This document shows positions 1 through 12,818 of a stretch of DNA of 40,271 bases, in pieces. The stretch comes from a virus: the IMG/VR virus record IMGVR_UViG_3300032116_000506, positions 1-40,271 of that record. The stretch is one strand, 5' to 3'. The position numbers were made by a program, and so were the translations under genes. Every line of letters starts with the position of its first letter. The stretch's first letter is position 1. The notes beneath the pieces are model-generated. The model was not told the origin of the DNA, did no database searches, and was given only the letters and a program-made list of their open reading frames with translations.

Positions 1-98
1 CGCGAATAGGTTTCATACTTCACGCTGTCGCTTGAACTGTCCTTGCTTCCGGCACTGCCTTCGACTTGGTGGCCACTGGCCCCGTTCATTTCTTCCAT
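1..98 (-). CDS. Capsid scaffolding protein, N-terminal fragment cut by window start
   Basis: The ATG is at 98-96 and the frame runs off the left edge after about 32 codons. The fragment matches the first residues of the complete gene at 33442-34026, so it is the copy-1 allele of the scaffold. The AGGAGG ribosome site about a dozen bases upstream is present in both copies. The fragment is cut by the window, not broken by mutation. Confidence 0.85.
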   Translation of the reverse strand, partial: MEEMNGASGHQVEGSAGSKDSSSDSVKYETYS

Positions 99-132
99 TC
101 TTGATTATCCTCCTATGGTTTTCAAGTATTAG

Positions 133-783
133 TCAGAGATTACGACGAATGTATCGAATGACAACCTTTTTCATCTGTGTGAGTAGCTTATCTTTTAGGC
201 GCTCAGAGAATCCAAAGAACGGCCTTCCGGCCTCGGTAACATACTGCGCTAGCTTTAGGTTGCTGATCTCTTTGCCGACTTTATAGAATCCAGAGCGCCC
301 GGTGTTTACGTAGCTCATCCCACCGAATGACTTCTCGAATCCCTTTACTGTTCTGCCTAGGTTAACTTTTCTTTTTTTCTTCTTTCTTACGAATGATTCC
401 ATGTACTTCTTCCGGTATGGCTGATGAGTGCCATCCATAAAGAGCCTGATGAAAATGCTTCTTGTGGTAACGGAATAGGTGAACTTTATCGCGTCGAGGA
501 GTTGCCCGGTTAGAGTAAGGTTGGATCTGGTTTTAGAATAGGCTGGATGGGTTGGGCTGGCTTCTGCGATCTTCTCTCTCTCATTCTTCCAGCTTTTAGA
601 TAATGGCTTAAAACGCTCCCCCGTCTCTGGCGAGATCCCCTTCCTGGCTGTGAATTTCAGAGTATCGACGGCGATCTTCCCGAGCTCGTTAATCAGTTGA
701 GGGTTTTGAATTACCCTATTGATCCGATCCTTTGTTTCCTTCTCCAGTCGGTCCAGGCTGGCCTTATTGAATACGAGCTTCAT
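133..783 (-). CDS. gp10-like virion morphogenesis protein (copy 1)
   Basis: This 216-residue basic protein has the block order of the phage virion-morphogenesis or tail-completion families (Mu gpG-like, HK97 gp10-like): a K-P-L-S-K-S-W segment, an LTLTGQLLDAI segment near residue 95, and a C-terminal RPFFGFS segment followed by an amphipathic helix. Such proteins act at head or neck assembly or the head-tail junction. It overlaps the next upstream gene by four bases (ATGA). It is 17 residues longer than the 199-residue allele at 34061-34660 because of a Lys/Arg-rich insert near residues 135-155. The family call is by pattern; the exact assembly step is inferred. Confidence 0.6.
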   Translation of the reverse strand: MKLVFNKASLDRLEKETKDRINRVIQNPQLINELGKIAVDTLKFTARKGISPETGERFKPLSKSWKNEREKIAEASPTHPAYSKTRSNLTLTGQLLDAIKFTYSVTTRSIFIRLFMDGTHQPYRKKYMESFVRKKKKRKVNLGRTVKGFEKSFGGMSYVNTGRSGFYKVGKEISNLKLAQYVTEAGRPFFGFSERLKDKLLTQMKKVVIRYIRRNL

Positions 784-1382
784 TCCAGACCGCCCACCAG
801 GCCGAACAGATCCTCAAGCGTCCTAAGCCCGCGTACGAACTCCACGGCCTTCTCCTGGCTCTCGAGTGAGCTGATCGTCCTGGATCCTGCGCTAGCGTCG
901 ATCTCGGCCTTGAACTTCGGGAGCACCTCGCGCTTTACCTCGTCGCTGGTAACACCGAAGAAGGGGCGCTTATACTTCCCGTTAGGGATCGTAGGATGGC
1001 CCTCGAATCCGGTCTGATGTCCGTAAGCCTTCGGTGCGTCCACCTCGTCGTCGATGCCTATAACGACCAAGGCTCCGTCTTCCTCGAGGATGTCGATCGA
1101 GCGAAGCATATCCCCGGTGAGTGTCATGTTCACTTGGTTCCGGCTCTTGCCTGCGGCCTTAAATGATAGGCTGTTAGCGTAGGCTTTCGAATATGGACTC
1201 TTCAGATCCTTGCGCCCCAGGCCTCGCCCCTCCTTGGCCCGGTCGACCATGTAGTCGATCACACCCTGGGCGATCTTACGGACCAGGACAGGATCGGATG
1301 AAATGTCCCGGCCAGTCAGCTCGTTTAGGTCGAGCTTCTGAGAAACCCGGCTTTTAGTGAGCTTGATCCCTGGCTCGGCCAT
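780..1382 (-). CDS. Second gp10-like morphogenesis protein (copy 1)
   Basis: This 200-residue protein has the same landmarks as its downstream neighbour: a SPYSKAY segment, MTLTGDMLRSI and KRPFFGVT, in the same order and spacing. The two genes look like an old tandem duplication. A GHQTGFEGHP segment before the RPFFG block is typical of tail-completion or virion-morphogenesis families. The start ATG shares one base with the portal stop (TGATG), indicating translational coupling. The allele at 34657-35259 is the same length with only a few substitutions. It probably acts in head completion or the neck; the precise role is unknown. Confidence 0.6.
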   Translation of the reverse strand: MAEPGIKLTKSRVSQKLDLNELTGRDISSDPVLVRKIAQGVIDYMVDRAKEGRGLGRKDLKSPYSKAYANSLSFKAAGKSRNQVNMTLTGDMLRSIDILEEDGALVVIGIDDEVDAPKAYGHQTGFEGHPTIPNGKYKRPFFGVTSDEVKREVLPKFKAEIDASAGSRTISSLESQEKAVEFVRGLRTLEDLFGLVGGLE

Positions 1383-2914
1383 CAGTCCTCAGCTCCGACG
1401 TCGCCTTCCTCTTCTGGCATATCGTCTTCCATGTCCTGGACCTCAGCCACGGGTGTGGTCTGAGTTGGCATGATTCTTTCCATTTCACGACCAGACTCTT
1501 CCTGGATTCGCTGATAGACTTCCTGCGCATCCTCGAGCTCGATCTCGCGGTCCAGGGCGATGGCTTCGACCTGAGTGATCAGGCCCATCTCCTTCCGTTG
1601 CTGGATGTTCTGGAGTTTCTCGGCTTCGGATACCACGCTTGAAGGCTTCTTGAAGGTGATGCTCATGAAGGCGTCTTCAGAGATCGGAGCTACCCGGTAG
1701 CCCGGAAGAACGCTAGTCCCTCCGTAGGTGTTGAGATACGCCACGATGATTTTGAACAGCTTCTGCTCGGCATCTTTGAAGGCGGCGATGTCGGACTCGC
1801 TGGCCTCGAACTGCTCGACCATGGCCAGCAGGCGCTCGAATCCCGAGCTGTACTTCACCGAGTCCATCTTCGCATTGACCACCTTCGGATCCACGCCCCG
1901 GCTTGTCAGGAAGCTAGACAGGAGGCCCTCAAGGTAGGACAGCGATCCTTGCAGATCAGGGTTCGCGTTAGCATAGCCGAAGTCGGTCTCGACCGGGTTG
2001 TTAGGATCAATAGGCAAGCGAAGGACGAAGTTAGTCCCGATCTGGACATTATTCGGGATCAGGTTAGACGGAGCTTTCAGCCATGCCTGGCCGAAGCCCT
2101 GCATGCGGACCACGTTCCCGAGGTCGGTCAGGCCTGCGTTGAATTGAATGGTGAAGTCGGTAAGGGCAGCGCCGGAGCGGACCCAATACTCGCCGTCCTT
2201 GCCACCGTTGATGTCCACGAATGGCACGACCCCACCGATCGGGTTCTCGTAGCTGTCGGCCTTCATGATGTTTCCATTTTCATCCATGACGAAATTGAAC
2301 ACAGGCGACCATACCGCGATCGCCTTCATGCCCGCCTGATAATCGTCTTCGTCCGCGATCAGCTCGTTCATGCTGTCGCCGTCTTCTGTCACCTTAACGT
2401 TAGCTAGGTTCCGGTCGAATCCGTTGATGCAGTAAACCTCGCCATCCTCCTGGTCCTGGGACGATGGCACCACGTCGATGTTATGGGCAAGCAAGGCCTG
2501 GAGCTTCAGCTTCCCGGCGCGAGGGATGAGATACAGGTGCGTCTGGTCTTGAAGCTTGAAGTACTCGTTAGCCTTCATCATGACCGTGTCGATCTTTAGG
2601 TCCGCGTACACCTGACGGACCACCATCTCCTGCTCTTCGCTGAGGCCGTAGAACTCACGGACTGGAGCCTTCCTGTAAAGGCTGGCTTCCTTCTTCACGA
2701 TCCGGCGAGCCAGGTTGACCGAGCTTACGATCGGCGTGTTTTGGATGGTGTCTTTCGAGTAGAATCCCTCGAGGTAGGCCTTCACCTGCTGGAGGATCCG
2801 GTCCTTGAAGATCTCGAACTGCCCAAAGGATACCTTCTTGCGCTCGACGTTCTCGCTTGCCTTGGATTCGTCGATGATCTGTCTACGGACGTTAGGGTTC
2901 AAAAGGTTCAGCAT
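1382..2914 (-). CDS. Portal protein (copy 1)
   Basis: This 510-residue protein lies directly after TerL, the classic portal position, and has normal portal length. The N-terminal third is helical (RRIVKKEASLYRKAP is typical of portal proteins), the middle has the wing/stem pattern with an NPIGGVVPFVDING stretch, and the C-terminal end is strongly acidic. Twelve copies would form the ring through which DNA enters and leaves the capsid and to which TerL docks. The start is set by AAGGAGAT seven bases upstream, lying inside the end of TerL. The allele at 35259-36770 is 503 residues; most difference is in the acidic tail. Confidence 0.88.
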   Translation of the reverse strand: MLNLLNPNVRRQIIDESKASENVERKKVSFGQFEIFKDRILQQVKAYLEGFYSKDTIQNTPIVSSVNLARRIVKKEASLYRKAPVREFYGLSEEQEMVVRQVYADLKIDTVMMKANEYFKLQDQTHLYLIPRAGKLKLQALLAHNIDVVPSSQDQEDGEVYCINGFDRNLANVKVTEDGDSMNELIADEDDYQAGMKAIAVWSPVFNFVMDENGNIMKADSYENPIGGVVPFVDINGGKDGEYWVRSGAALTDFTIQFNAGLTDLGNVVRMQGFGQAWLKAPSNLIPNNVQIGTNFVLRLPIDPNNPVETDFGYANANPDLQGSLSYLEGLLSSFLTSRGVDPKVVNAKMDSVKYSSGFERLLAMVEQFEASESDIAAFKDAEQKLFKIIVAYLNTYGGTSVLPGYRVAPISEDAFMSITFKKPSSVVSEAEKLQNIQQRKEMGLITQVEAIALDREIELEDAQEVYQRIQEESGREMERIMPTQTTPVAEVQDMEDDMPEEEGDVGAED

Positions 2915-2915
2915 T

Positions 2916-4280
2916 TTATCTCCTTGAGCTTCCGACCATTACGGTCCCGAGCAAGTTGTGCTCGTAAACCACAGCGTAGCCGATCGCGGTGGTAATGTGC
3001 TGGTAAGGCTTTGAGTCGTCTTCGATGTAATCGCCGGACTTCTTCAGAGCTGTCAGCCTTAGCCCATCGTGCGTTACGGGAGCCGTTTTGTAAACGAACA
3101 AGCGCCGTTCGCCTGCCTCGTTCTGGCAATAGGCGTTCGCGATATTGTGGCGCTTCCTTACCGGAGGATTCTCACGAGGGACCTGCATCTCGAAGGTAGC
3201 GCCTGAGTTGGCCAGCGTTTTCCTGATGATGTCATAATCCGACACGATGGAGCGCGTGTCACGGGCCTGCCCGGAAGCGTCACCCCTCACCAGTATCTTC
3301 GCCCGGTGCGTCAGGATGCCCTTATCGATCCATGCGTCGATAGCGTCCTGAGTCCGAGCTCCTTGGATGACCACCTCGTCGAACCAGTGCCAGGCCTTTC
3401 CGTCCCACTGGCCAGCCGCCGATGACATGGGCTTCCCGTGGCCGATGTTGAAGTCGAACGCGAGCACGATCGGGAGATGGGGCCTTACCTGGTAGGCGGT
3501 GTTCAGGTAGTTCTTATCGGCGTCATAGGCCGAGTAGATCCGATCCTGGTCGATCTCGACCCACTCGCCATAGATGTACCTCTGGGCCTCTCGAGGAGCC
3601 AAGTCCTGCTTCAGTTGCTCGATGTAAACCGGATCTAGGAACGGGTTATCGGTCGTTACCGACTTGAACACCTTTCGAGTCCTGGCCTCGCTGTCGAAAA
3701 AGTATTTATAGACCCAGTGGCCTGGCCCGTCCGGATTCGTGGCAGCTATCAGGATGTTCTCCTTCACCTCTGGGATCCGACGAAGACGGGCCTTCAGCGT
3801 ATCGAAGGCGGCCTTGTCATCCTCGTTATTCTCGGTGAGCTCCTCGAACACAACCATGGACAGCTTGAGAGACCGGGCCTTCTTGTATTTCTTATCCGAC
3901 CAGCTTCTCGAGATGATCTCGGATCCGTTCCACCAGGTAACCTTAGCGATCGAGTGGTTTACTCTGTAGTGCTTTCCCTCGACGAAGTCTTCCGTGATGT
4001 GCTCCAGGATCTCCTTGAAGATCGTATCCTTCAGATCAGGCAGGGCCTTACGCGCTAGGCAGACTCTCGCTCCAGGATTCTCGACGCAATGACGGACGGC
4101 CAGATGAGCCATAAGGATAGACTTTGCGGATCCATAACTGCCAGACAAGAGAATCTCAGGCGTACCTGTTCCGAAATCCCAGTCATCAAGAAAATCGACG
4201 ACATCAGACTGATAAGGAATAACTCGCGGGTTAAAGTCGCTGAAGTAGGGCTTGGAGTATTGTTCGACTGCTTCACTCAT
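2916..4280 (-). CDS. terL: Terminase large subunit (copy 1)
   Basis: This 454-residue packaging motor combines an ATPase and an RNase H-fold nuclease. The P-loop is at residues 47-54 (GSYGSAKS, with Ala before Lys, tolerated in terminases), Walker B with the catalytic acid at 142-147 (MVVFEE), and a coupling motif near 178-183 (IAATNP). The nuclease domain starts with AFDFNIG (Asp276), continues with VRGDASG, and ends with the helical segment QHITTAIGYAVV. The start overlaps the TerS stop (ATGA). Only seven residues differ from the second copy at 36772-38136, despite many silent changes, so the gene is under strong purifying selection in both. Confidence 0.95.
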   Translation of the reverse strand: MSEAVEQYSKPYFSDFNPRVIPYQSDVVDFLDDWDFGTGTPEILLSGSYGSAKSILMAHLAVRHCVENPGARVCLARKALPDLKDTIFKEILEHITEDFVEGKHYRVNHSIAKVTWWNGSEIISRSWSDKKYKKARSLKLSMVVFEELTENNEDDKAAFDTLKARLRRIPEVKENILIAATNPDGPGHWVYKYFFDSEARTRKVFKSVTTDNPFLDPVYIEQLKQDLAPREAQRYIYGEWVEIDQDRIYSAYDADKNYLNTAYQVRPHLPIVLAFDFNIGHGKPMSSAAGQWDGKAWHWFDEVVIQGARTQDAIDAWIDKGILTHRAKILVRGDASGQARDTRSIVSDYDIIRKTLANSGATFEMQVPRENPPVRKRHNIANAYCQNEAGERRLFVYKTAPVTHDGLRLTALKKSGDYIEDDSKPYQHITTAIGYAVVYEHNLLGTVMVGSSRR

Positions 4281-4618
4281 TCCTTCTTCTTGCGCTCGTA
4301 GTTCATGTTTATTTTGATCGCGCCCTCGTTCTCGACAGCCACTTCTTGCTTATCTGCCCAACCGCATAGGTTCTTTAGGCAAAAAATCAGCATGGTGTTA
4401 TCCCCACCCATGGCCTTCTCGATCGCCTTTCTGATCAGCGCGTGTCTAGTGTGGACCATCTTTTGTTGCCGAAACTCGACAAAGCTCACGCCGTACTCGT
4501 CGCGGATAAAGCGCTCGATGGTACGATCCGAGCAGTCGAAGAACGCAGCCGTATCGAGGAGCGTCGGCTTCTGTCGCATGAAGGCTTCTAGCTTCTTCTT
4601 GTCGATTTCAACCGCCAT
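4277..4618 (-). CDS. terS: Terminase small subunit, type A
   Basis: This 113-residue protein sits immediately before TerL and overlaps it by four bases. Residues 10-55 form a helix-turn-helix of small-terminase type (DTAAFFDCSDRTIERFIRD), expected to recognise the packaging site. A central helical segment would form the ring, and the C-terminal tail EGAIKINMNYERKKKE would contact TerL. ATG at 4618 is preferred over the in-frame GTG at 4621 because it shares one base with the preceding stop (TGATG) and has GAGGTG just upstream. The copy-2 TerS (38133-38453) keeps this tail but has an unrelated N-terminal domain. Confidence 0.8.
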   Translation of the reverse strand: MAVEIDKKKLEAFMRQKPTLLDTAAFFDCSDRTIERFIRDEYGVSFVEFRQQKMVHTRHALIRKAIEKAMGGDNTMLIFCLKNLCGWADKQEVAVENEGAIKINMNYERKKKE

Positions 4619-5835
4619 CACGCACCTCTGATCTCATCCCAGGCGACTCCGTCTTCCCGGTGTGCCTTCTTGCCTGTAAACTTCTGCCATCGGTCGAGGA
4701 TTACTCCGCAGTAATGCGGATCAAGCTCCATCATAAAGCAGTTTCGTCCAGTCTTTTCGCAGGCGATTAGTGTTGATCCAGACCCACCAAAAACGTCTAC
4801 AATATTTGAACCTTTTGCGCGTTCAAAAAACCACTCAACAAGCGCAACCGGCTTTTGTGTTGGATGGACAGACCTGTCTTCGCCTCTTGCCGAAAAAGCT
4901 CCGGTTTGCCTAAGCACTCTCGCAAGTTCTCGTTTGCGTTTCTTTTTAGACCAGCAAGTTTCAAAGTCTGAACCAAATGCACCGTCTAATGTTCCCACTT
5001 CAATTTCTGATCGTGATCTCTTATCCCAAACAATCCAAGAGCCATTATTTTTTTCGTGAATCAACTCGGCGTAATAATCTGCGCCGAATAAAAAAATCTC
5101 TTCACAATCTTGAAAAATTCCCAATAGAGTTTGTATTAGTTCAGCCTTAAAATCATCTCCATCGCCAATGACTCGTTTGTGCTTTAATCCAGATTTCCCC
5201 ATTTTTGAGTAGTCTGTATCTAAATTCATGCCATACGGAGGATCTGTAAAAACCATATCGGCCTTCTCGCCGTTCATTAGCCGTTCGATATCGGTGATCG
5301 CAGTTGAGTCTCCGCACATGAGGCGATGATTCCCAAGGATGTAAACCTCGCCTTGAACCACCTTCGGATCTGGCCTGGCGTCTGGCACTTCGTCCTCGTC
5401 GCACTCTGGCTCGAGCTTCTCCGACAGATCAAGCGTAAAGTCCTTGAGTCCCAGCATCTCGAGATCAAAGTCTGGTCCAAGGTCTGGCAAGTCCGCATTG
5501 ATTCCAGCCAGGTCGAGCTCGGCCCAGGATGCGATCGCGTTGTCGGCCTGGATGAACGCATACTCGGCGGTCTCGTCCGCGAACTTCTGGTAGACCACAG
5601 GCATTGAATCGAAGCCCGCCTTCTTCCCTGCTAGCTTCCGTCCGTGGCCTGCCACGATACAGCCTGAGAGCTCGGAGATGATGATGGGATGCCTGATCCC
5701 GTGGTACTCGTAGAGCTTCGCCAGGCGCTCGATCTGCTCGTCTGAGTGCTTGTTCCTGTTCTTCGGGTGATCCTTCAGCTCATGGATGGGAATCATCCGG
5801 TCATAGCGACAATGGATCTCTGGAATGTTGGTCAT
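4618..5835 (-). CDS. ParB-like domain fused to a DNA methyltransferase
   Basis: This 405-residue two-domain protein starts at 5835, where GGAGG lies eight bases upstream; the in-frame ATG at 5850 precedes that site and is rejected. Residues 10-100 are a ParB/Srx-like domain with HPKNRNKH and the VAGHGRKLAG box. Residues 155-405 are a beta-class methyltransferase with DPPY at 198-201 (N6-adenine or N4-cytosine chemistry), HPTQKPVAL at about 324-332 and the AdoMet motif FGGSGST at 349-355. All key motifs look intact. Base composition across about 4680-5260 is visibly AT-richer than the flanks, suggesting later arrival. The second copy (38440-38976) lacks the methyltransferase domain. Confidence 0.9.
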   Translation of the reverse strand: MTNIPEIHCRYDRMIPIHELKDHPKNRNKHSDEQIERLAKLYEYHGIRHPIIISELSGCIVAGHGRKLAGKKAGFDSMPVVYQKFADETAEYAFIQADNAIASWAELDLAGINADLPDLGPDFDLEMLGLKDFTLDLSEKLEPECDEDEVPDARPDPKVVQGEVYILGNHRLMCGDSTAITDIERLMNGEKADMVFTDPPYGMNLDTDYSKMGKSGLKHKRVIGDGDDFKAELIQTLLGIFQDCEEIFLFGADYYAELIHEKNNGSWIVWDKRSRSEIEVGTLDGAFGSDFETCWSKKKRKRELARVLRQTGAFSARGEDRSVHPTQKPVALVEWFFERAKGSNIVDVFGGSGSTLIACEKTGRNCFMMELDPHYCGVILDRWQKFTGKKAHREDGVAWDEIRGA

Positions 5836-6001
5836 GCTCTGTTCCTCCACTGGACGGTCCAGCTAGCCCCACTGGGGCCTCTCTCTCCAGTGTTAGACCA
5901 TCCTCGTCAGGAATCAAAGCCGAACGCATTACTGCACCGAGTCGAGAGAGTAGGCTTTTTTTTCCTAGTGATCCCCTTACCCTAAGAGCGGGGGAACACG
6001 C
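5836..6001. promoter_or_regulatory. Divergent control region, copy 1
   Basis: These 166 bases separate the start of the minus-strand late unit from the plus-strand island, so both promoters should lie here, though I see no convincing -10/-35 pair. Three structures recur in copy 2: a perfect 6-bp inverted repeat with one-base loop (5850-5862), a GCCCC/GGGGC hairpin (5866-5878), and a stem flanking eight T residues (5951-5967) that shows a compensatory base change between copies. The first inverted repeat ends five bases before the ribosome site of the ParB gene. A one-base indel between copies breaks any shared reading frame, so the stretch is probably noncoding. Confidence 0.55.
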
Positions 6002-6946
6002 ATGGACCAGAAGCACTACGTGGTCGTAAAGCTGAAGGAGCTCGCGCATGAGTTGGGGCGCGTCCCGATGATCTCGGATTTCCAGGCCATCTTTCCGCGC
6101 ATCCCGGTCGGGATCCTGTTCGGGACCTGGGATAACGCTCTCAGGGCGGCTGGCCTGGTAGAGAAGGAAGAGCCGAAGAAGAAGGATCCATTCCCGGCCA
6201 TTGATGATCCTGAGAAGATCAAAGAGATCGTTTACTCTCAGGAACACAGAAACGTCGTCAGGCTTAACCACGCCGAGAAGATCATGGTCGTGGGCGACAT
6301 GCACCTGCCTTTCGTAAATCTGAACGCGCTCTCGATGGTCTACGCCTTCGCTCAGAAGGAACAGCCGGACGTGATCGTCCAGGTTGGTGATCTTACCGAC
6401 CAGTATTCGGCCTCGAAGTTTGCCAGGTCGCTGAACACCTACACGCCGAAGGCTGAGGATGATCTGTCCAGGGAGATGGCAGAGGACTTTTGGAAGACGC
6501 TCCAGCAGGTAGCACCGAAGGCGAAATGCTTCCAGCTCATGGGCAACCATGACGCGAGAATACTCAAGCGCATCGTCGAGAAGTGCCCAGAGGGAGAACA
6601 CCTGATCGCCCAGGCCATCCGATCCAGAATGACTTTCGAAGGAGTGACGACAATCCATGACCCGACCGAGGAACTCTACATCAACGGGATCTTGTTCATC
6701 CACGGCCACTATTCGAAGCTGGGCGCGCACCGTGATTTTAACAACTGCAACGTCGTGTGCGGTCACTCTCACCGTGGCGGGGTTAATTATCGGAGCTATA
6801 ATGGCGAGACCTTCTGGGAGCTTAACGCCGGATTCATCGGCGACCCCTATTCGAAAGCCCTCTCCTACCGTCCGCAACGGATCCATAACTGGACGACAGG
6901 GATCGGTCTCATCGACGAATACGGCCCGCGCTTTATCAGCTTCTGA
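6002..6946 (+). CDS. Calcineurin-like phosphoesterase with HNH-associated repeat (copy 1)
   Basis: This 314-residue protein has two parts. Residues 5-52 match the HNH/homing-endonuclease-associated repeat (LKELAHELGRVPMISDF then FGTWDNALRAAGL), a likely DNA-binding helical unit. Residues 92-280 form a metallophosphatase with all motifs in order: GDMH (Asp99, His101), GDLTD (Asp130), GNHD (181-184), HGH (234-236) and GHSH (254-257). It should be a two-metal phosphoesterase acting on a nucleic acid or nucleotide substrate. GGGGGAA lies eight bases before the ATG. First gene of the only plus-strand operon. The allele at 39142-40092 is 316 residues. Confidence 0.88.
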   Translation: MDQKHYVVVKLKELAHELGRVPMISDFQAIFPRIPVGILFGTWDNALRAAGLVEKEEPKKKDPFPAIDDPEKIKEIVYSQEHRNVVRLNHAEKIMVVGDMHLPFVNLNALSMVYAFAQKEQPDVIVQVGDLTDQYSASKFARSLNTYTPKAEDDLSREMAEDFWKTLQQVAPKAKCFQLMGNHDARILKRIVEKCPEGEHLIAQAIRSRMTFEGVTTIHDPTEELYINGILFIHGHYSKLGAHRDFNNCNVVCGHSHRGGVNYRSYNGETFWELNAGFIGDPYSKALSYRPQRIHNWTTGIGLIDEYGPRFISF

Positions 6947-6956
6947 GGAGGTCTCT

Positions 6957-7274
6957 ATGATCGTGAAGGTAGTGAATAAGAAATGGAAGATCACCGTCCG
7001 CACCGATAAGATCCACAACGCTCGATTTGGTGAGACGCACGGGATCGCCATGCTGGACGATAGGAAGATCCACATCAGGCGCTCGAGCATGAACTCGGAG
7101 ACGATCCTCCACGAGCTGATCCATGCCTATCAGCACGAGCTCTCGTTTCATGAGCTCCAGCTAGACGACGACCAGGTCGAAGAGTGGTTCGCCGAGCTGT
7201 TCGGGAAATACGGTCGCACGATGATCAAGGACGCCGATCGGCTTTTAACTTACTACCGGGAGCGGAAGAAGTGA
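6957..7274 (+). CDS. Small SprT-like zinc metallopeptidase (copy 1)
   Basis: This 105-residue protein contains HELIHAYQHE, an HExxH zinc-protease motif, at about residues 52-61, followed by an acidic helix (EEWFAELFG) that could supply the third ligand. It resembles minimal SprT-like or gluzincin domains seen in phages; the substrate is unknown. The start at 6957 is supported by GAGGAGG eight bases upstream, overlapping the phosphoesterase stop region. Its stop overlaps the GTG of the next gene. The second copy (40103 onward) begins M-T-V instead of M-I-V and is cut by the window end. Confidence 0.75.
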   Translation: MIVKVVNKKWKITVRTDKIHNARFGETHGIAMLDDRKIHIRRSSMNSETILHELIHAYQHELSFHELQLDDDQVEEWFAELFGKYGRTMIKDADRLLTYYRERKK

Positions 7275-7555
7275 GGCCATGGGCCCAGGCGCTCGTCCTG
7301 CTCGTGGCAGTATGCTTTAGCCTAGACCAGGTCCGGGACGCTGAGTGTAAGACCTATTGCCGGACCGCAGCCGGGTACGATTCCGGGATGTGGATTGTGA
7401 AGCAGAAACGGTGCTGGTGTGGCGACCTCATGGATCAAGAGAGGCTATCGGATAAGAAAATCATGGCGCCGAAGAAGGTTAACAAAGTCAGGAAAGCGAG
7501 CTTTATGGTCCCGATGAGTGTACCGAGCGAAGACTTCAGGCTTCCGTGGGAGTGA
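7271..7555 (+). CDS. Small exported or membrane-anchored Cys-rich protein
   Basis: The likely start is the GTG at 7271, which overlaps the preceding stop (GTGA), giving 94 residues. The N-terminus (RPWAQALVLLVAVCFSLDQV) is a signal peptide or membrane anchor; a C-K-T-Y-C pair and a C-W-C pair follow, then a Lys-rich tail. No family recognised. Its position after the phosphoesterase and peptidase in one coupled operon suggests an envelope-directed role expressed with them. It ends at 7555, directly abutting the end of the convergent zinc-ribbon gene, with no spacer for a terminator. Confidence 0.6.
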   Translation: MRPWAQALVLLVAVCFSLDQVRDAECKTYCRTAAGYDSGMWIVKQKRCWCGDLMDQERLSDKKIMAPKKVNKVRKASFMVPMSVPSEDFRLPWE

Positions 7556-7693
7556 TTAGTTAAGGCTTTTCTTCCGTTCATCTGAGACCACCATCAGGAT
7601 CGAGCGACAGTCCGCGCATACCCAGGTGTAAATCTTTCGGATCACCTGGTCGCCAGTCTTCGTCATGCCACACTCTTCGCAATAGAACACCAC
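7556..7693 (-). CDS. 45-residue zinc-ribbon protein
   Basis: A GTG at 7693 (another at 7690) opens a 45-codon frame with two knuckles, FYCEECGM and WVCADCRS, spaced 18 residues apart, as in small zinc ribbons of phage replication or transcription regions. A near-perfect ribosome site (GGGGGTGAT) precedes it by five bases. It is the last gene of the minus-strand early unit, just downstream of a likely terminator (7731-7786), so it may depend on readthrough or its own promoter. A longer frame over the same bases (7578-7793) lacks these features. Confidence 0.72.
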   Translation of the reverse strand: MVFYCEECGMTKTGDQVIRKIYTWVCADCRSILMVVSDERKKSLN

Positions 7694-7730
7694 GCTCGAT
7701 CACCCCCATCCTTCTGACAGCATAGCCCGA

Positions 7731-7786
7731 AGAAAAGAAAAGGCCAGAACCATTGAAAGGAACACGCATGGTGTTGGTCCTGGCCT
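7731..7786 (-). terminator. Stem-loop with U-rich tail after the Lys-rich gene
   Basis: The arms are 7741-7752 and 7774-7786: seven pairs (AGGCCAG/CTGGCCT), one bulged base, then five more (AACCA/TTGGT), around a 21-base loop. Read on the minus strand the stem is followed by TTTCTTTTCTTC, as in rho-independent terminators. It would end or reduce transcription of the early unit before the zinc-ribbon gene. Confidence 0.6.
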
Positions 7787-7813
7787 CGCTCATCGGATGG
7801 GAGCCGACGAAAC

Positions 7814-8041
7814 TTACTTCTTCTTTTTGCTTACAGTCTTCTTGGCCTTCTTGGCTTTAATGGTTTTGGTTACTGCTTTCTTAGCTACTTTTTTGTTTGC
7901 TGGCATTTTCTTTCTCTTTCGTTTGTTGGTTTTAGTTCTCCTTGCAGCGCCCACGGTCTGGGGGGAGTCCGTGAGCGTTGCGAGGAACCTAGACAGTAGG
8001 CTGTCGAGGAAGCCGATAATCTTTTCAACGATGGCGATCAT
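7814..8041 (-). CDS. Small Lys-rich protein with amphipathic N-terminal helix
   Basis: The 75-residue protein starts at 8041 behind AGGAG eight bases upstream. Residues 1-24 form an amphipathic/hydrophobic helix (MIAIVEKIIGFLDSLLSRFL). Residues 34-75 are extremely basic, with KKA/AKK repeats resembling the tails of histone H1-like bacterial proteins. An internal ATG at 7906 could give a 30-residue peptide that is nearly all tail. It may bind DNA or act at the membrane; neither is established. It overlaps the end of the membrane-peptide gene by 17 bases in another frame. Confidence 0.6.
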   Translation of the reverse strand: MIAIVEKIIGFLDSLLSRFLATLTDSPQTVGAARRTKTNKRKRKKMPANKKVAKKAVTKTIKAKKAKKTVSKKKK

Positions 8042-8186
8042 GGCGGTGGCTCCTGTCGGATGCGATTAAGAACAGGCCGATCAGTGTAACCAGGCCGAAG
8101 ACGAGCATGAAAAACACGAAGATCATAAAGCCCACAGCGACCAGCGGATCGTTAGAATCAAGGGCCTGAAGTATTGCCTGAGTCAT
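8025..8186 (-). CDS. 53-residue single-span membrane protein
   Basis: This short frame starts at ATG 8186 with GGAA about ten bases upstream and fills the gap between the VRR-NUC gene and the Lys-rich gene. Residues 15-42 are a clear membrane helix (AVGFMIFVFFMLVFGLVT and on), followed by a basic, His/Arg-rich tail. It overlaps the previous gene by 29 bases and the next by 17. A holin-like or superinfection-related role is possible but unsupported. Confidence 0.65.
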   Translation of the reverse strand: MTQAILQALDSNDPLVAVGFMIFVFFMLVFGLVTLIGLFLIASDRSHRHDRHR

Positions 8187-8514
8187 GTTTAGCGAGTTCC
8201 TTTTCTACGTCGTATATCGACCGAGCCACGAATGCAAGACCCCCTCGATCATTTATTTTCTGAATAAAGAACTGCTGCTCCGGGCTCACTCGCCCCTTAT
8301 CAGTCTTCACTTCGATAGCCAGGATCCGTCCACCGGGAAGGATGCCGAGAATGTCCGACACGCCCTTGATGTGGAATGGATTATTATTCTTCCGATAGAT
8401 CCGCTTTACTGGATCGTAAATGCCGACCGATTGATTCTTCCAGGCGAAGATACCGCGCTTGAAAAGGTAGGTCAGGATCTGGTTCTCGATAAGCTTTTCC
8501 GGCTGTGATGACAT
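8158..8514 (-). CDS. VRR-NUC-type nuclease
   Basis: This 118-residue protein starts at the first in-frame ATG (8514). It carries the PD-(D/E)xK core in VRR-NUC arrangement: Glu10, GVSD (Asp54), AIEVK (Glu68, Lys70) and a following Q-Q near 80-81. Stand-alone phage VRR-NUC proteins are structure-selective nucleases thought to cut Holliday junctions or branched replication intermediates, fitting its place after Erf. The ribosome site is weak, and a strong hairpin (8531-8556) lies just upstream, so translation or mRNA stability may be controlled there. Confidence 0.82.
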   Translation of the reverse strand: MSSQPEKLIENQILTYLFKRGIFAWKNQSVGIYDPVKRIYRKNNNPFHIKGVSDILGILPGGRILAIEVKTDKGRVSPEQQFFIQKINDRGGLAFVARSIYDVEKELAKHDSGNTSGP

Positions 8515-8530
8515 GGCCTGAAGTAAATCA

Positions 8531-8556
8531 GGGCGGTCAACCGAAGTCAACCGCCC
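8531..8556 (-). promoter_or_regulatory. 11-bp hairpin with UUCG tetraloop between Erf and nuclease genes
   Basis: The minus-strand RNA folds into GGGCGGUUGAC, a UUCG loop, and GUUGACCGCCC: 11 continuous pairs with two wobbles, closed by the stable C(UUCG)G loop. It lies in the 88-base gap between the Erf stop (8603) and the nuclease start (8514). There is no U-run after it, so it is more likely a processing, stability or attenuation element than a simple terminator. Confidence 0.6.
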
Positions 8557-8602
8557 CGACCAGCGCCGCGAGAGTAGCAGGCTATTCCCTGGCCTGCTGG
8601 CG

Positions 8603-9064
8603 CTATCTGTTGAAATCATCCCACGAAGGACCGGAGGCCTTCTGTTGGATCGGCCTTTGCGCTGGCCTTGCCTGGACAGGCTTAGGCGCTTCACGCTCGG
8701 CCCTGTTAGCGTCGTCGTCCTCCTCGGCTCCGAGTGCCACCAGGGAAGCAAGGCCCAGCCTGCGGCCATAGGTGAGAGCTGAACCGAAGCCCTGCATGGT
8801 CTGGCGTTCGAGGACCAGGTAAATCCTGCTCTCGATCTGCTCGCCAGATTCGTGGATCAGCTTAGTCTCGACGAAGTGGCCCTCTGGATCCTTGCCACAG
8901 GTCTGGGCGATGACGATCCCGTTCTGGTTCAGCTCGACCTTCACCGCATCCAGGACAGCCTCGAGCGTGGCGTATCTGCTTTTGAAGTGTGGGTTATTAG
9001 CGTTCTTCCGAGCGTTCTCGATCTTCTTCTGTGCTTCAAGTAATGCCTTCACGATGTTCTTCAT
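8603..9064 (-). CDS. erf: Erf-family single-strand annealing protein
   Basis: This 153-residue recombinase has family signatures NPHFKSRYATLEAV near residues 22-36 and QGFGSALTYGRRLGLASLVAL near 88-108, followed by an acidic EEDDDAN and a Pro/Gln-rich tail. It anneals complementary single strands, pairing with the exonuclease encoded just upstream. The ATG at 9064 is chosen because AAGGAGG lies five bases before it; the in-frame ATG at 9079 overlaps the exonuclease stop and lacks a good site. Annealing recombinases of this kind promote mosaic exchange between related phages. Confidence 0.9.
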   Translation of the reverse strand: MKNIVKALLEAQKKIENARKNANNPHFKSRYATLEAVLDAVKVELNQNGIVIAQTCGKDPEGHFVETKLIHESGEQIESRIYLVLERQTMQGFGSALTYGRRLGLASLVALGAEEDDDANRAEREAPKPVQARPAQRPIQQKASGPSWDDFNR

Positions 9065-9075
9065 GGTCGCCTCCT

Positions 9076-9858
9076 TCATGCCCAGCTGGGTGCGGTTAAT
9101 GGTACGGCGAATCTCGGAAACTTATCCGGGCACTCTGGCGTACGCTCAAGCTCAAGCGCTGTATCGAAGGCGCGCCAGTACTTCTCTACAGCCTTTTCAC
9201 GTGTGCTGATGTCGGTCACGTCGTACAGCGCTACCTCGCCGGATCCTGTCTCGCAGGCCAGGACCAGCATCTTCGGAACGCTTGCCAGCTTCGGATTATG
9301 GATCCGCGCCAAATTCGCGTAATGGAGAAACTGCACGTCATAGTGCAGATTCAGGAAGTCCTTCGCGAACAGCGCCGGATCAGCCGAGCGCGTGGTCTTG
9401 ATGTCCACGATCACGCTTCCGTCCTGGGACATGAGATCGAGCCTTCCCTTGATCGCACCGGCTGGCATCTCGCCCGAGATGGTGAACTCCTTGAGCCCGG
9501 TCCCGAGCAGGGATGAGAACTCCAGGATTTCGGCGGCGCGACGATGCATCCGCTTGATCTGCTCGAGCTCCTCGTCAGTGATGACGGTCTTGCCAGATGC
9601 CTGAGCCTCGAAAGCCTCGGAGGCCTCCTTCCCGGCCTTGGTGCGACGGTCGAACTTCTGGCTCACGGCCACCAGGTCGCCGAACCGATCGGCTTCGAGA
9701 AAGTAGGCGTGCAAAGCCGTGCCGAACTTCATCGCATCGGATGGCTCGCGCTCGACATGGAGCGACTGCCAGCCAGACCAGAGCCCGTTAGCGCAGGCCT
9801 TGAGAAGGCTGGCGTTAATTCCTGGAAGAGAACGATAATCGGAAAAGGGAATGTACAT
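9076..9858 (-). CDS. RecE-like PD-(D/E)xK exonuclease
   Basis: This 260-residue protein matches the RecE/exonuclease VIII C-terminal nuclease family. Visible motifs are FGTALHAYFLE (His50), GRLDLMS (Asp141), VDIKTTRS (Asp152, Lys154) and YDVQFLHYANL (Gln176, Tyr180), the order found in lambda-Exo/RecB-like nucleases. It would resect double-stranded ends to give single strands for Erf. It is separated from the previous gene by about 95 bases holding two direct repeats, so the exonuclease-Erf-nuclease set may have its own promoter. Confidence 0.88.
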   Translation of the reverse strand: MYIPFSDYRSLPGINASLLKACANGLWSGWQSLHVEREPSDAMKFGTALHAYFLEADRFGDLVAVSQKFDRRTKAGKEASEAFEAQASGKTVITDEELEQIKRMHRRAAEILEFSSLLGTGLKEFTISGEMPAGAIKGRLDLMSQDGSVIVDIKTTRSADPALFAKDFLNLHYDVQFLHYANLARIHNPKLASVPKMLVLACETGSGEVALYDVTDISTREKAVEKYWRAFDTALELERTPECPDKFPRFAVPLTAPSWA

Positions 9859-9909
9859 AGAATGACCGCCTCGCTTCGGTCGTGTTTGTTGATGCCTGGA
9901 CTTTACCAG

Positions 9910-9941
9910 TTAAACCTAGCTCCGGGTAATTATTAAACCTA
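9910..9941. promoter_or_regulatory. Paired 9-base direct repeats upstream of the exonuclease gene
   Basis: TTAAACCTA occurs at 9910-9918 and 9933-9941, 23 bases apart (about two helical turns), in an otherwise noncoding gap (9859-9953) in front of the recombination genes. The spacing suggests binding of a dimeric regulator on one DNA face. No clear promoter hexamers were found beside them. Confidence 0.35.
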
Positions 9942-9953
9942 ATAGGATCGGGC

Positions 9954-10220
9954 CTAGAAGATGTGTTTTTTCATCTCAATCAAAAAGGTCAACACAGGCT
10001 CGGACTGGCACGACGAACAGATGATGAGCATCGAGTCCTCCATGCGACACTCACACTCCCCGACTTCCTCGTCGACTAGGGCAATGGCAAGTTGGAACCC
10101 TTCGCGCTTCCCTAGTTCGTAGGCCTCGCGCTTAACCTGGGCGATCATGTCCCGGTTGACTGCTTCGCTCAGTCCCTTGATGATCGTGTCAGTATGCGGT
10201 TTTGGTTTCGCCTTGGCCAC
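9954..10220 (-). CDS. Small Cys-containing helical protein, unknown function
   Basis: The frame ends at 9954; the start is uncertain. GTG at 10220 gives 88 residues and ATG at 10148 gives 64; neither has a strong ribosome site, and the far-upstream TTG at 10298 lies inside another gene. The body is an amphipathic helix (AQVKREAYELGKREGFQLA) followed by a C-E-C and an ICSSC pair, possibly a zinc site. No family recognised. It is the last gene before the control region of the exonuclease gene. Confidence 0.5.
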   Translation of the reverse strand: MAKAKPKPHTDTIIKGLSEAVNRDMIAQVKREAYELGKREGFQLAIALVDEEVGECECRMEDSMLIICSSCQSEPVLTFLIEMKKHIF

Positions 10221-10329
10221 GCTGAGATGATGAGGCTTCGACCTGGATAGCACAAGAGCTATCAGCCTTATCAGCGCCACAGGTGCAGATCCAGCCAAGG
10301 CATGACGGCGCGTGTTTTACTTTTTGCAT
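10189..10329 (-). CDS. 46-residue Cys-rich zinc-knuckle protein
   Basis: ATG at 10329 sits four bases after a strong GGGGAGG site. The first 20 residues contain HAPSCLGWICTCGADK, a His/Cys cluster likely to bind zinc, as in many tiny phage early proteins. The rest is polar and Gln/Ser-rich. It overlaps the end of the membrane-peptide gene by 13 bases. Function unknown. Longer upstream extension of this frame (to 10491) runs across the membrane-peptide gene and is not favoured. Confidence 0.6.
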   Translation of the reverse strand: MQKVKHAPSCLGWICTCGADKADSSCAIQVEASSSQRGQGETKTAY

Positions 10330-10448
10330 AGAACCTCCCCGGCCCATCTCAGGCCACAGGCGACAAGCATCGCACCGAGCGCGAATGAGCCGCCAGATAA
10401 AAAGAAAATCCAAAAGAGCTCGACCATCGTTTCCGTTTCCATGTTCAT
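10317..10448 (-). CDS. 43-residue membrane protein
   Basis: ATG at 10448 (or 10442) opens a frame with an acidic N-terminus (METETMVE) and one membrane helix, LFWIFFLSGGSFALGAMLVA, ending in a short basic tail. GAGGG lies ten bases upstream and is partly enclosed by a long RNA stem (10461-10514). Overlaps the zinc-knuckle gene, indicating coupled translation. Function unknown. Confidence 0.6.
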   Translation of the reverse strand: MNMETETMVELFWIFFLSGGSFALGAMLVACGLRWAGEVLCKK

Positions 10449-10460
10449 AAATTGAAAGCC

Positions 10461-10537
10461 CTCGAGCCGGAGGCTGCGTTATTGTAGCCATCCGAGGTTA
10501 AACTCCGACTCGAGGGAAGCCCGGCACCATGCCAGGC
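10461..10537 (-). promoter_or_regulatory. Structured leader RNA between AP2 gene and membrane peptide
   Basis: Two strong foldings follow each other on the minus strand. First is an 8-bp stem with a three-base loop (arms 10530-10537 and 10519-10526, one wobble). Next is a 12-bp inverted repeat (arms 10503-10514 and 10461-10472, one wobble) with a 30-base loop that itself contains a GGCT/AGCC inner stem. The last arm runs into the ribosome site of the 43-residue gene. The roughly 100-base gap (10449-10549) therefore looks like a cis-regulatory RNA or processing site. Confidence 0.5.
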
Positions 10538-10549
10538 AATTCTTAATCC

Positions 10550-10753
10550 TTATCCAGTGAGCGCCTCAATGCTCGTCACTTGCTTTCCATTCTTAACCGC
10601 GTATCTGTTCCAGGCTTCGACCGCCTTCTCCATGCTCTCGTAGCATCCGAGATAAACGGGCTCGCCTTTGACAACCGTCCGCACCATCCATCGGTATGGC
10701 TTTCCGTTTCTTTTGAGTGCATACACGCAGAGCGGTTTTTTCTTCTTGTTCAC
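10550..10753 (-). CDS. Stand-alone AP2-like DNA-binding domain
   Basis: The 67-residue protein is one AP2/ERF-like fold: a three-strand part (KPYRWMVRTVVKGEPVYLGCY) with the Arg/Trp positions of the DNA-contacting sheet, then a helix (SMEKAVEAWNRYAVKNG). In phages this domain is usually attached to an HNH endonuclease; here no nuclease part is present. It may be a small DNA-binding regulator or a remnant of a homing endonuclease. It begins three bases after the stop of the Ala-repeat gene and precedes a structured gap. Confidence 0.65.
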   Translation of the reverse strand: MNKKKKPLCVYALKRNGKPYRWMVRTVVKGEPVYLGCYESMEKAVEAWNRYAVKNGKQVTSIEALTG

Positions 10754-10756
10754 AGA

Positions 10757-11275
10757 TCACTCCGCGCCTTTCGTAGCTTCGCCTTTCAGCGCTTCACGGG
10801 CATACTTTTTCATTATTTCAATCTGAGCTTGTTCTTCTTCCTTTCTAACAGCAGCATTAGCAGCATAAGCAGCAGCATCAGCAGCATAAGCAGCAGCATT
10901 AGCAGCATAAGCAGCAGCATTAGCAGCATAAGCAGCAGCATCAGCAGCATAAGCAGCAACATCAGCAGCGGCATGAGCAGCAGTAGCAGTAGCACCTTTT
11001 CTTGCGGCCTCTATTGCCTTTCTCGGACGATCATCGTTTGGATATTTGCTTTCGTAAATGTGCAACACTCTTTCGGCAAAGTCGGCAGCTACTAAACGCA
11101 GCTTGTCTTTATCAATCGACCGAACAAACACCCATTTTTTATCCTCATGAGTAAGTTCTGGTAAAGCAAGAAACGCTTCAAGCGTACCTTGCCAGTTTGA
11201 ATAACAAGTCAAATAGTGATCAAAACGATTTTTGCAGGGGTTCAATGATTCCAGATAGTCTTTGGTAATAAGCAT
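10757..11275 (-). CDS. Imm5-like protein with Ala/Tyr heptad repeats
   Basis: The 172-residue protein starts at ATG 11275, sharing one base with the preceding stop (TGATG), behind AGGTGG; the GTG at 11278 is less likely. Residues 1-95 include NPCKNRF and a RPRKAIEAARK segment, the pattern of putative Imm5-like immunity proteins common in phages. Residues 98-145 repeat A-A-Y-A-A-[DN]-A about six times, predicted as one long helix. A charged helix ends it. The biological role in phages is not known; 'immunity' is only a family label. Confidence 0.6.
   Translation of the reverse strand: MLITKDYLESLNPCKNRFDHYLTCYSNWQGTLEAFLALPELTHEDKKWVFVRSIDKDKLRLVAADFAERVLHIYESKYPNDDRPRKAIEAARKGATATAAHAAADVAAYAADAAAYAANAAAYAANAAAYAADAAAYAANAAVRKEEEQAQIEIMKKYAREALKGEATKGAE
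10850..10975. repeat. 21-base tandem repeat inside the Ala-rich gene
   Basis: Five near-identical 21-base units (10850-10954) and a sixth degenerate one encode the seven-residue Ala/Tyr repeat. Units differ mainly at one base that switches Asn and Asp. The length is a multiple of three, so copy-number change would keep the frame. Confidence 0.85.
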
Positions 11276-11517
11276 CACTGCCCACCTTTCCGCAGGTAAT
11301 TCAACGCTTCACGGGCACGGCGGCCACCCATTGGCTTTTGATCTAGAAATGGTTTTGACACATCGTCGAAATCAACTTCGGTAAGATATGGCATTTTGAT
11401 ATTTATCCACGCCTTATCAGCATAAAACTCCAACGCCTCCCTCAGTCGGGCGTTTTCGGCTTCGAGCTTTTCAATCTTTTCCATCAGCGCATCAATGTGC
11501 GTTTCTGTCGGTGTCAT
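11275..11517 (-). CDS. Small coiled-coil protein, unknown function
   Basis: The 80-residue protein begins at ATG 11517, where AAGGAG lies seven bases upstream inside the preceding gene's end and the start shares one base with that gene's stop. Residues 8-30 are a short coiled coil (ALMEKIEKLEAENARLREAL). The C-terminus GGRRAREALNYLR recalls a common class of phage early hypothetical proteins. No enzymatic motif. Confidence 0.65.
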   Translation of the reverse strand: MTPTETHIDALMEKIEKLEAENARLREALEFYADKAWINIKMPYLTEVDFDDVSKPFLDQKPMGGRRAREALNYLRKGGQ

Positions 11518-11864
11518 CACTCAGCTCCTTCTGCCTTGATCCGCACAGGATACCCGCCAGCCAGGATCCGATCCCGGTTCACGCGAAGCCATTCATGGAT
11601 CGCGCCTCCCTTGTTCCCCTGACCGCTCTCAGTGTTGAAAAGCCCGAACTCGGAGAATGCTTTCAGCACAACGTCGAAAGTCTGATCTTCCACCTGGTCC
11701 AGGATGATCTCCATGCGTTGCCTGTGGATCCTGAGATAATCCCGATCAGTCACGGCCTTGCGGAATCCGCGCTCTTCTGCTTCGGCCTCGAGCTTCTTCA
11801 AGGCCGGGCCAGTGTGAGCGAAGTCAAATCCTGCGTTAAATCCATCTGTATATTCGTCGAACAT
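11517..11864 (-). CDS. Small early protein, unknown function
   Basis: ATG at 11864 is preferred because GGGAGG lies six bases upstream; the ORF could be read further to 11903 but without a ribosome site. The 115-residue product begins MFDEYTDGFNAGFDFA, a stretch often seen in short phage early proteins, then has charged helices. No recognised domain. It sits between SSB and the coiled-coil gene in a tightly coupled row. Confidence 0.6.
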   Translation of the reverse strand: MFDEYTDGFNAGFDFAHTGPALKKLEAEAEERGFRKAVTDRDYLRIHRQRMEIILDQVEDQTFDVVLKAFSEFGLFNTESGQGNKGGAIHEWLRVNRDRILAGGYPVRIKAEGAE

Positions 11865-11935
11865 GAGGAGCCTCCCATCCTGTTGTAAAAGTTGGCCGAT
11901 CATTAACCGCTCGGCTCACACGGTGCTGGAAAAGA

Positions 11936-12235
11936 TTAGAACGGAACGTCGGCACTGAGGACGTCGATCCGGTCAGCGATCGCCTCGAGCCGGAAGTCTT
12001 TCTTAGCGGCTGGATCTGGATTCTTGATCATAGCGTTCCGAAGGCTTCCGAAGACAGTCACCTGGTCTCCGTCGACGATCTTCGTGTTGATGCCGAAGCC
12101 AGTCACCGGGATCTTCGAGGTGTAACCTTCTGCGTTCTGGCACTCAACCATGAAGTTGGTAATGATCATCCCGGTCTTCGCTGTGCGCTCTTTCACGTAA
12201 AGCGCTTTTCCACTTAGCTTGATTTTGTTTTCCAT
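11936..12235 (-). CDS. ssb: Single-strand DNA-binding protein (OB fold)
   Basis: The 99-residue protein has the beta-rich spacing of an OB fold (GKALYVKERTAKTGMIITNF, then KIVDGDQVTVFGSLR) and ends in S-A-D-V-P-F, like the acidic D-x-[IV]-P-F tip by which bacterial SSB recruits partner enzymes. It would coat single strands in replication and recombination. AAGGAAG lies about nine bases before the ATG. Shorter than E. coli SSB mainly through a missing linker. Confidence 0.72.
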   Translation of the reverse strand: MENKIKLSGKALYVKERTAKTGMIITNFMVECQNAEGYTSKIPVTGFGINTKIVDGDQVTVFGSLRNAMIKNPDPAAKKDFRLEAIADRIDVLSADVPF

Positions 12236-12249
12236 TGCTTCGCTTCCTT

Positions 12250-12489
12250 TCAGTTTAGTTTAGCGTCCAGTTCTGCCACCTTGATGCCGAGATACAGATC
12301 TCGGTAATGGCAATAGTTTCTCCATGCTCGTTCCCTGGCCTCAAGGAACGCCTTCGAGTTCCACCCTTTGGAATACTCCATCGAGTAGTAAATGTGCCAG
12401 GCCTGCGCTACCAGTGGATCGCGAAGCATGGCTTTCACCTGTTCAATCTTTTCGTGGTCGATCTTGTTGTTCATGCCCGGACAATACAT
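12250..12489 (-). CDS. Small helical protein, unknown function
   Basis: The start at 12489 shares one base with the preceding stop (TGATG), giving 79 residues; an ATG at about 12474 (MNNKIDHEK) is an alternative. It is rich in aromatic and charged residues (QAWHIYYSMEYSKGW), predicted all-helical. No family recognised. Translationally coupled to the zinc protein before it. Confidence 0.55.
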   Translation of the reverse strand: MYCPGMNNKIDHEKIEQVKAMLRDPLVAQAWHIYYSMEYSKGWNSKAFLEARERAWRNYCHYRDLYLGIKVAELDAKLN

Positions 12490-12818
12490 CAGAAATCCCA
12501 TTCAAGCTTATTATTAGAACTGATAGCCTTGGCCTTCGCGCACTTTCCGCAGTAATAAACCCACGCGCCAGATTGAGCCTTGAATGGAATCATGCTCCGT
12601 TGTTCCTTCATGCGCTTCTTGTATTCCATCGACTGCTCAAGCTTTCGCTTCATGGCGACCATGGACTCGCTTAGGTCTTGATCGGCCACGAGCTCGCGCC
12701 TGTGCTGGTATCCGCAGGCGTTACAGATCAGGCCCGAAAAACTTATTTCCTCTTCCTGGAGCTTTGCGAGTCGGTTGAATCCCACCGTTATCTTGTGAAG
12801 TTCTGTCTTCCAGTTCAT
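12489..12818 (-). CDS. Zinc-finger protein of the replication region
   Basis: ATG at 12818 with AAGGAG seven bases upstream gives 109 residues. Two knuckles, CNACGYQH near residue 33 and YYCGKC near 90, are separated by a charged helical insert (KRKLEQSMEYKKRMKEQR), suggesting one zinc ribbon formed by distant halves. Its first 98 bases overlap the end of the DnaB-like gene in another frame. A replication- or recombination-associated DNA-binding role is inferred from position. Confidence 0.65.
   Translation of the reverse strand: MNWKTELHKITVGFNRLAKLQEEEISFSGLICNACGYQHRRELVADQDLSESMVAMKRKLEQSMEYKKRMKEQRSMIPFKAQSGAWVYYCGKCAKAKAISSNNKLEWDF

Follow-up and report, generated by a model that had tools for sequence, protein, structure and literature searches.

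A probable exchangeable DNA-modification slot between a ParB domain and the terminase genes in a group of phages

Type I HsdS and type III Mod proteins exchange their target-recognition domains within a constant catalytic frame, and such an exchange was reportedly described in a lactococcal phage by Hill et al. in 1991, as cited in the 2020 paper of Bellas et al. A survey published by Iyer and colleagues in 2013 is reported to link ParB domains with phage DNA-modification genes. We describe a locus in which a ParB domain, a predicted DNA methyltransferase (MTase) and the small (TerS) and large (TerL) terminase subunits are encoded in a row, in the viral IMG/VR record IMGVR_UViG_3300032116_000506, a single contig of 40,271 nucleotides (nt) that was analysed whole and is called the window below. 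Two copies of the locus, A and B, are present in it. The locus is likely to be an exchangeable DNA-modification slot reaching from a constant ParB domain to TerS–TerL, in which the MTase caps are kept and the TerS head varies independently. As in HsdS, Mod and the lactococcal phage, a recognition part would be swapped in a constant catalytic frame. Unlike HsdS and Mod, the enzyme is an orphan, ParB-fused beta-class phage MTase beside the terminase, no cognate restriction enzyme having been noticed among the window genes examined, although no search was aimed at one.

The nearest precedent comes from cryoconite. In Bellas et al. (2020; PMC7468147), near-identical Mu-like phages differ by a 2-kb region of the packaging module with ParB, TerS and TerL, and DNA MTases are inserted, deleted or swapped for an acetyltransferase. 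MTases and terminases are listed there among the most variable genes, and among those variable genes whose function is known, MTases are the most frequent. Variation of MTases close to the terminase has therefore been reported before. Whole genes vary in the Bellas phage, whereas at the present locus only the middle of the MTase changes, between two constant caps and beside a constant ParB domain; moreover, the present alternatives include Mom, TAGT and a 7-deazaguanine set, and their independence from the TerS heads was tested. With regard to single sequences, the cultured Psychrobacter phage pOW20-A (JF974295) encodes a ParB–MTase-like 'DNA methylase' that aligns with 97% of the query at 38.8% identity and, like the present locus, has ParB–MTase, a small open reading frame (ORF) and TerL in a row with overlapping genes, but is a single isolate. 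The DNA methyltransferase family phrog_498, which matches the fusion over its whole length (E = 6.7e-86), provides a family annotation only and is silent on exchange. Among the titles and abstract openings covered, with subscription papers mostly outside, there was no case of a ParB-fused phage MTase exchanging its recognition region alone and no slot alternating methylation, Mom, TAGT and 7-deazaguanine genes, Bellas et al. being the closest. The ParB_n of PMC12373910 belongs to a different nuclease family and has no bearing here.

Two forms of the locus in one record

Copies A and B share their flanks, which are 90.8% identical over 376–4328 and 92.9% over 5419–7123, and between these flanks 1090 nt of copy A are replaced by 375 nt of copy B (Table 1), two segments between which BLAST found no match. 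The swap, noticed in an earlier note on this DNA made from the sequence alone, is thus real, and both junctions lie where that note had put them, to within a few bases. Its claim that TerL and the ParB domain stay constant also stands, each having 92.6% DNA identity between the copies. In copy A, the ParB domain continues into the MTase, and in copy B into a short tail with a CPKC motif, resembling a zinc (Zn) ribbon (Zn_ribbon_5, 0.012, a Pfam score below cut-off). The PF01555 matches of the window are confined to copy A, and a profile search of the relative IMGVR_3300046786_000355 (G003), to which the second copy is nearer (91–92%), gave no PF01555, Mom, C5, D12 or TAGT match, so that in the Zn-tail form the slot seems to be empty. 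Successive genes overlap by a few bases (TerS-A and ParB–MTase at 4618, TerS-B and ParB at 38440–38453), and both TerS genes overlap the start of TerL.

Table 1. Positions in the window of the two forms of the locus, their anchors and variable parts, and the joint between strains.
Feature	Positions	Strand	Basis
TerL of strain 1, constant flank	2916–4280	minus	Pfam Terminase_3, E = 1.7e-23; 92.6% DNA identity to 36772–38136
TerS-A, variable helix-turn-helix-like head and constant 16-residue tail (about 4277–4327)	4277–4618	minus	PHROG 309 terminase small subunit, E = 1.4e-6
Form A of the replaced segment, with the TerS-A head and the MTase portion of the fusion	4329–5418	minus	
ParB domain fused to predicted beta-class N6/N4 DNA MTase, 405 residues	4618–5835	minus	PF02195, 8e-7; PF01555, 2.6e-16
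MTase C-cap (FGGSGSTLIA... to stop), anchor 3	4618–4791	minus	Sliding identity, four phages
Hypervariable MTase middle (about residues 202–348), putative target recognition region	4792–5232	minus	Sliding identity, four phages
MTase N-cap up to DPPY (residues 140–201), anchor 2	5233–5418	minus	Sliding identity, four phages
Constant ParB domain (residues 1–139), anchor 1	5419–5835	minus	92.6% DNA identity to 38560–38976
Joint of strain 1 and strain 2	12488–12530	none	Identity to G001 stops at 12487, similarity stops near 12530
TerL of strain 2	36772–38136	minus	Homology to TerL of strain 1
TerS-B, other head, same tail	38133–38453	minus	PHROG 12540, 1.7e-5; PHROG 309, 2.2e-3
Replaced segment, form B: Zn-ribbon-like ParB tail and TerS-B head	38185–38559	minus	
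ParB domain with short CPKC tail, without MTase ('empty' slot)	38440–38976	minus	PF02195, 3.5e-8

The presence of both copies in one contig would suit a single physical genome of 40.3 kb with a diverged 6.3-kb duplication, keeping two alleles for switching. However, positions 1–12487 are 100% letter-identical to IMGVR_3300031951_000634 (G001), a closed relative of 34.98 kb, and past about 12.5 kb the identity drops from 100% to 81–88% (14483–40271, except for one piece at 93% and a few short ones). The ends of G001 are near-identical (127 nt at 99.2%), as are those of G003 (182 nt at 98.4%), as expected if the two are circular and closed, with lengths of about 34.9 and 33.5 kb, and each of the genomes G001–G004 (33–35 kb) has one ParB_N match. 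A single genome with two copies was rejected on these grounds, and we regard it as extremely unlikely. The ends of the window repeat one another, 1–310, 376–4328 and 5419–7123 matching its 3' end at 91–94%. Copies A and B belong to two strains of one phage group, the second of which the record follows from about 12488. On the simplest reading, the genome is circular or permuted, and the record goes once around it and then overlaps its own start with a second strain; two alleles of the locus would stand in one window because the record joins these strains. The joint may have arisen during assembly or by genuine recombination. Past this point, a gene for a DnaB-like helicase (12721–13638) stands in the window where G001 and G003 hold a different gene. 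Scans of genome contigs for the host gave no close relative, the only matches being metagenome-assembled genomes of Bdellovibrio (54%) and Rickettsiales (32%).

Only the middle of the methyltransferase is replaced

In beta-class MTases, the target recognition domain sits between the DPPY and FxGxG motifs. The fusion of copy A is predicted from its families to be such an N6/N4 DNA MTase, with DPPY N-terminal to FxGxG and a recognition region in between. A motif check, which kept 25 of the 31 sequences collected, found DPPY (198–201) invariant and FGGSG (349–353) invariant or nearly so. The structure model of the fusion has a mean predicted local distance difference test (pLDDT) score of 77.6; the ParB part and the catalytic caps are confident and parts of the middle are poor, the low-pLDDT patches falling within the hypervariable region of Table 1. 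Foldseek matched this model best to M.BceJIV (2.6e-9), and also to M1.HpyAVI, CcrM and M.RsrI. With regard to the ParB domain, the nucleotide-binding motif of the N-terminal (CTP-binding) domain of ParB proteins is GERRxR. In the window, this motif is kept in part only, GHGRKLA aligning with GERRFRA of the structure 6sdk, while PF02195 scores above its cut-off, and in Foldseek the ParB part matches the CTP-binding ParBs 6sdk and 7bm8 with root-mean-square deviations of 2.6–3.3 over 126–129 columns.

The exchange takes place inside METHYLTRANSFERASE. When copy A (winA) is aligned with L007, L008 and L014, the N-terminal parts of these four phages being 95–98% identical, the sliding identity is 92–100% across the ParB domain and 89–98% in the N-cap (windows of 20 columns), drops to 58% at the DPPY edge and to 4–49% over the following 140 residues or so, and returns to 92–98% from about residue 352 onward. 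The same pattern is found among 41 distinct ParB–MTase fusions (from 79 candidate ORFs, 78 of them with a ParB match), in whose 820 pairs the identity of the N-terminal part correlates with that of the C-terminal part (rho 0.48) and not with that of the middle (rho 0.04). In the ten pairs with N-terminal parts at least 90% identical, the middles share 16–47% (median 27) and the C-terminal parts have a median of 95%; put in terms of phages, those 91–98% alike in ParB and MTase N-cap have middles at 16–47% and C-caps at 76–100%. The reverse is also seen, with identities of N-terminal part, middle and C-terminal part of 52/84/69 for L049 and L027, and of 55/85/68 for winA/L022 and L043; each of these pairs joins different TerS heads. 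Conserved flanks, an unrelated recognition region between them and the same region in unrelated frames were all found, as in target-recognition-domain exchange. The alignments establish that both predicted catalytic caps stay and that only the middle, putative target-recognition part is replaced, as a unit.

Slot contents and TerS heads among relatives

The ParB domain is retained beside MTase, Zn-tail, Mom and TAGT contents. Relatives whose TerL is at least 97% alike hold four recognition-region alleles with TerS-A and one with TerS-B, and also carry Mom (PF25680 in Pfam/PHROGs, 1.5e-47 in L004) and two Zn-tail variants. At lower TerL similarity, Mom accompanies TerS-B in L021 (2e-44) and L038 (9e-47), and L015 has TAGT (PF20691, 1.4e-35), of which L224 carries a copy at 69% identity. 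In L025 (1–3240), likewise more distant, a queuine-transglycosylase-like gene and QueC/QueD/QueE/FolE-type genes lie directly upstream of TerS-A and are a predicted 7-deazaguanine DNA-modification set occupying the slot. Distant relatives also have a D12 MTase (L237, 2.4e-11), a C5 MTase (L238, 7e-58; L305, 2e-44), or a pair of ABC ATPase and GNAT genes (in the slot of L228, and in L301 and L316 by phmmer). A second complete N6/N4 MTase gene lies in L013 (3790–4947) between TerS-B and a 98%-identical TerL, and is present in part in L012. Pfam gave no match for the upstream ORFs of L279, L274, L309 and L302 or for L237:3646–4185. The slot ORF of L239 (5600–6010) resembles the Acb2/Tad1 hairpin domain weakly, with a score below cut-off, and may possibly be an anti-CBASS gene.

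A survey of 24 records, all 28 kb or longer, picked by TerL alone and with distances obtained by arithmetic, placed PF01555 (10 records) and Mom (two) in every case within 2 kb upstream of TerL and on the same strand. One D12/C5 locus is also in the slot (G015, below the Pfam cut-off, 2e-101 by phmmer), which brings the modification-gene loci at the slot to 13 of 16; TAGT was searched in 12 records, not in these 24. Neutral mosaicism alone, with modification genes present by chance at an insertion-tolerant gene junction, would agree with mosaicism elsewhere, the replication module differing between the window and G001 at 12.5–14.4 kb, and with the HNH-, trypsin- or transposase-like genes found near the slot in some relatives. 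We nevertheless hold it to be unlikely, as chemically different modification genes recur at the same place, as most of the surveyed loci lie there, and as replacement in the enzyme affects only the middle, which determines specificity, and leaves the rest constant. By eye, ORFs of 150–175 residues resembling HNH homing-type nucleases stand between the slot and TerL in L272, L276, L280, L294 and L305. Terminase-adjoining regions are hot spots for homing-type nucleases according to PMC10448857, and such nucleases are a possible helper of slot exchange.

With regard to TerS, both forms are small proteins of the helix-turn-helix type, encoded just before TerL and matching TerS families (PHROG 309, and 12540 for TerS-B), and their last 16 residues, EGAIKINMNYERKKKE, are identical. 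The NYERK tail is common to three head types, namely, TerS-A, TerS-B and that of L028. A hydrophobic-x-hydrophobic-x-Tyr pattern ([FILMV].[FILMVA].Y) occurs within the last 26 residues of 34 out of 46 distinct ORFs at the TerS position, which include some that are probably not TerS (L012, L316 and the HNH-like L272, L276 and L280), compared with 4.0% of tails after shuffling and with 26 of the 235 ORFs from other positions. The modular TerS envisaged in the earlier note, with the head exchanged and the tail kept, is borne out by the frequency of this peptide and by the three heads on the NYERK tail. These data support a conserved C-terminal peptide on the TerL side, with putative binding to TerL, and it may represent a general TerL-docking motif. 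A second natural example is provided by L268 (4052–4441) and L269 (620–1075), in which heads of different types carry nearly the same tail.

The earlier note had further proposed that the TerS head and the MTase are co-inherited, in which case each head would always travel with the same ParB form. The linkage was examined in 18 distinct relatives with TerL at least 74% alike, from IMG/VR TerL matches and tblastn with the modules. The slot was known in 22 of the 24 TerL rows, and L005, L259, L260 and winA were dropped as copies; the analysis excluded L012, L261 and L271, which are truncated by the contig end, L028, whose contig has a third head but lacks the slot, and L220, in which TerL is incomplete. 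TerS-A is accompanied by an MTase in winA/L022, L007, L008, L014, L026 and L027, by a Zn tail in L011, by Mom in L004/L005 and by the 7-deazaguanine genes in L025. TerS-B is found with a Zn tail in winB (copy B), L006 and L023, with an MTase in L013, L016, L017 (= L018, L019) and L024, with Mom in L021 and L038, and with TAGT in L015. An MTase is thus present in six of nine TerS-A phages versus four of nine TerS-B phages (Fisher p = 0.64, to be taken as descriptive only), and with all four combinations occurring, neither head is tied to one ParB form and the proposed co-inheritance does not hold. The TerL tree requires a minimum of four changes of head, three of which are imposed by branches with good support, and a minimum of five changes of slot class.

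These data also bear on a single functional cassette of TerS head and ParB form, in which the MTase would mark DNA near a packaging site read by the head. The two genes adjoin, overlap by a few bases and were swapped together between the strains of the window, and the Zn-tail phages with TerS-B cluster in the TerL tree. Against it stand the four combinations, the Mom, Zn-tail and 7-deazaguanine partners of TerS-A, and the occurrence of both head types in four of the six multi-member clusters of middles (at least 60% alike), two of these on weak head assignments. Putative MTase specificity is therefore not tied to the head either. We consider a cassette of this kind very unlikely, and the tempting link of methylation to the choice of packaging site is corrected here as unsupported. 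As for the exchange in one step suggested earlier, it is possible for the two strains of the window and is not the rule. The comparisons show that the slot content, the predicted MTase middle and the putative TerS head are each replaced separately beside constant anchors.

Several points weigh against an independently exchanged slot. The IMG/VR contigs were obtained by assembly, and chimeras may occur among them. The pairs and rows compared are not independent. One scan for relatives used peptide patterns from the MTase middle of the window itself and so favoured relatives that resemble it there (L043 and L048, for example), yet this bias cannot create a mismatch with the flanks. The grouped Zn-tail TerS-B phages have L011 (TerS-A) inside their group, and because the Zn-tail phages group in this way, not every split in the tree comes with a reshuffling of slot and head. 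In the survey, ParB_N was detected in only 11 of the 24 records, and the three remaining modification loci, of D12/C5 type, lie 5–7 kb off TerL (G017, G004 and G002). Finally, the order is altered in L321 (2954–5148), where TerS comes before a ParB–MTase that directly precedes TerL.

Possible function of the slot and neighbouring genes

The preferred explanation remains an exchangeable modification slot, the most likely function of which, judging from the gene families, would be the evasion of host restriction by allele replacement. Such a slot would probably let near-identical phages escape different host restriction systems. In the mechanism that we propose, co-infecting phages would recombine in four conserved anchors, namely, the ParB domain, the MTase N-cap, the MTase C-cap and the TerS tail/TerL start, and the modification allele would be selected by host restriction–modification. 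The TerS tail would dock on TerL, and a swap of the TerS head would alter the packaging site. As a doubtful extension, the constant ParB domain might be a DNA clamp, a general loader putting the plugged-in modification enzyme on phage DNA before packaging, either as part of the MTase fusion or as a separate partner of enzymes such as Mom and TAGT; were this true, the DNA that TerS commits to packaging would be fully modified.

The relatives form a natural library of near-identical packaging genes with differing modification enzymes and recognition regions. Comparing the slot alleles may reveal how restriction drives phage evolution, and would provide matched MTases with one frame and many specificities, while TerS heads swapped on a conserved TerL-side peptide would be useful for mapping the docking of the small and large terminase subunits.

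With regard to the other genes of the window, the divergent gene beside ParB (6002–6946 and 39142–40092, plus strand) codes for a metallophosphoesterase with an N-terminal homing-endonuclease-associated repeat (PF18780). At 10757–11278, a weak Imm5-like match is accompanied by an Ala-rich tandem repeat of the AAYAADAAAYAANAA type, in 13 overlapping copies of 63 nt.

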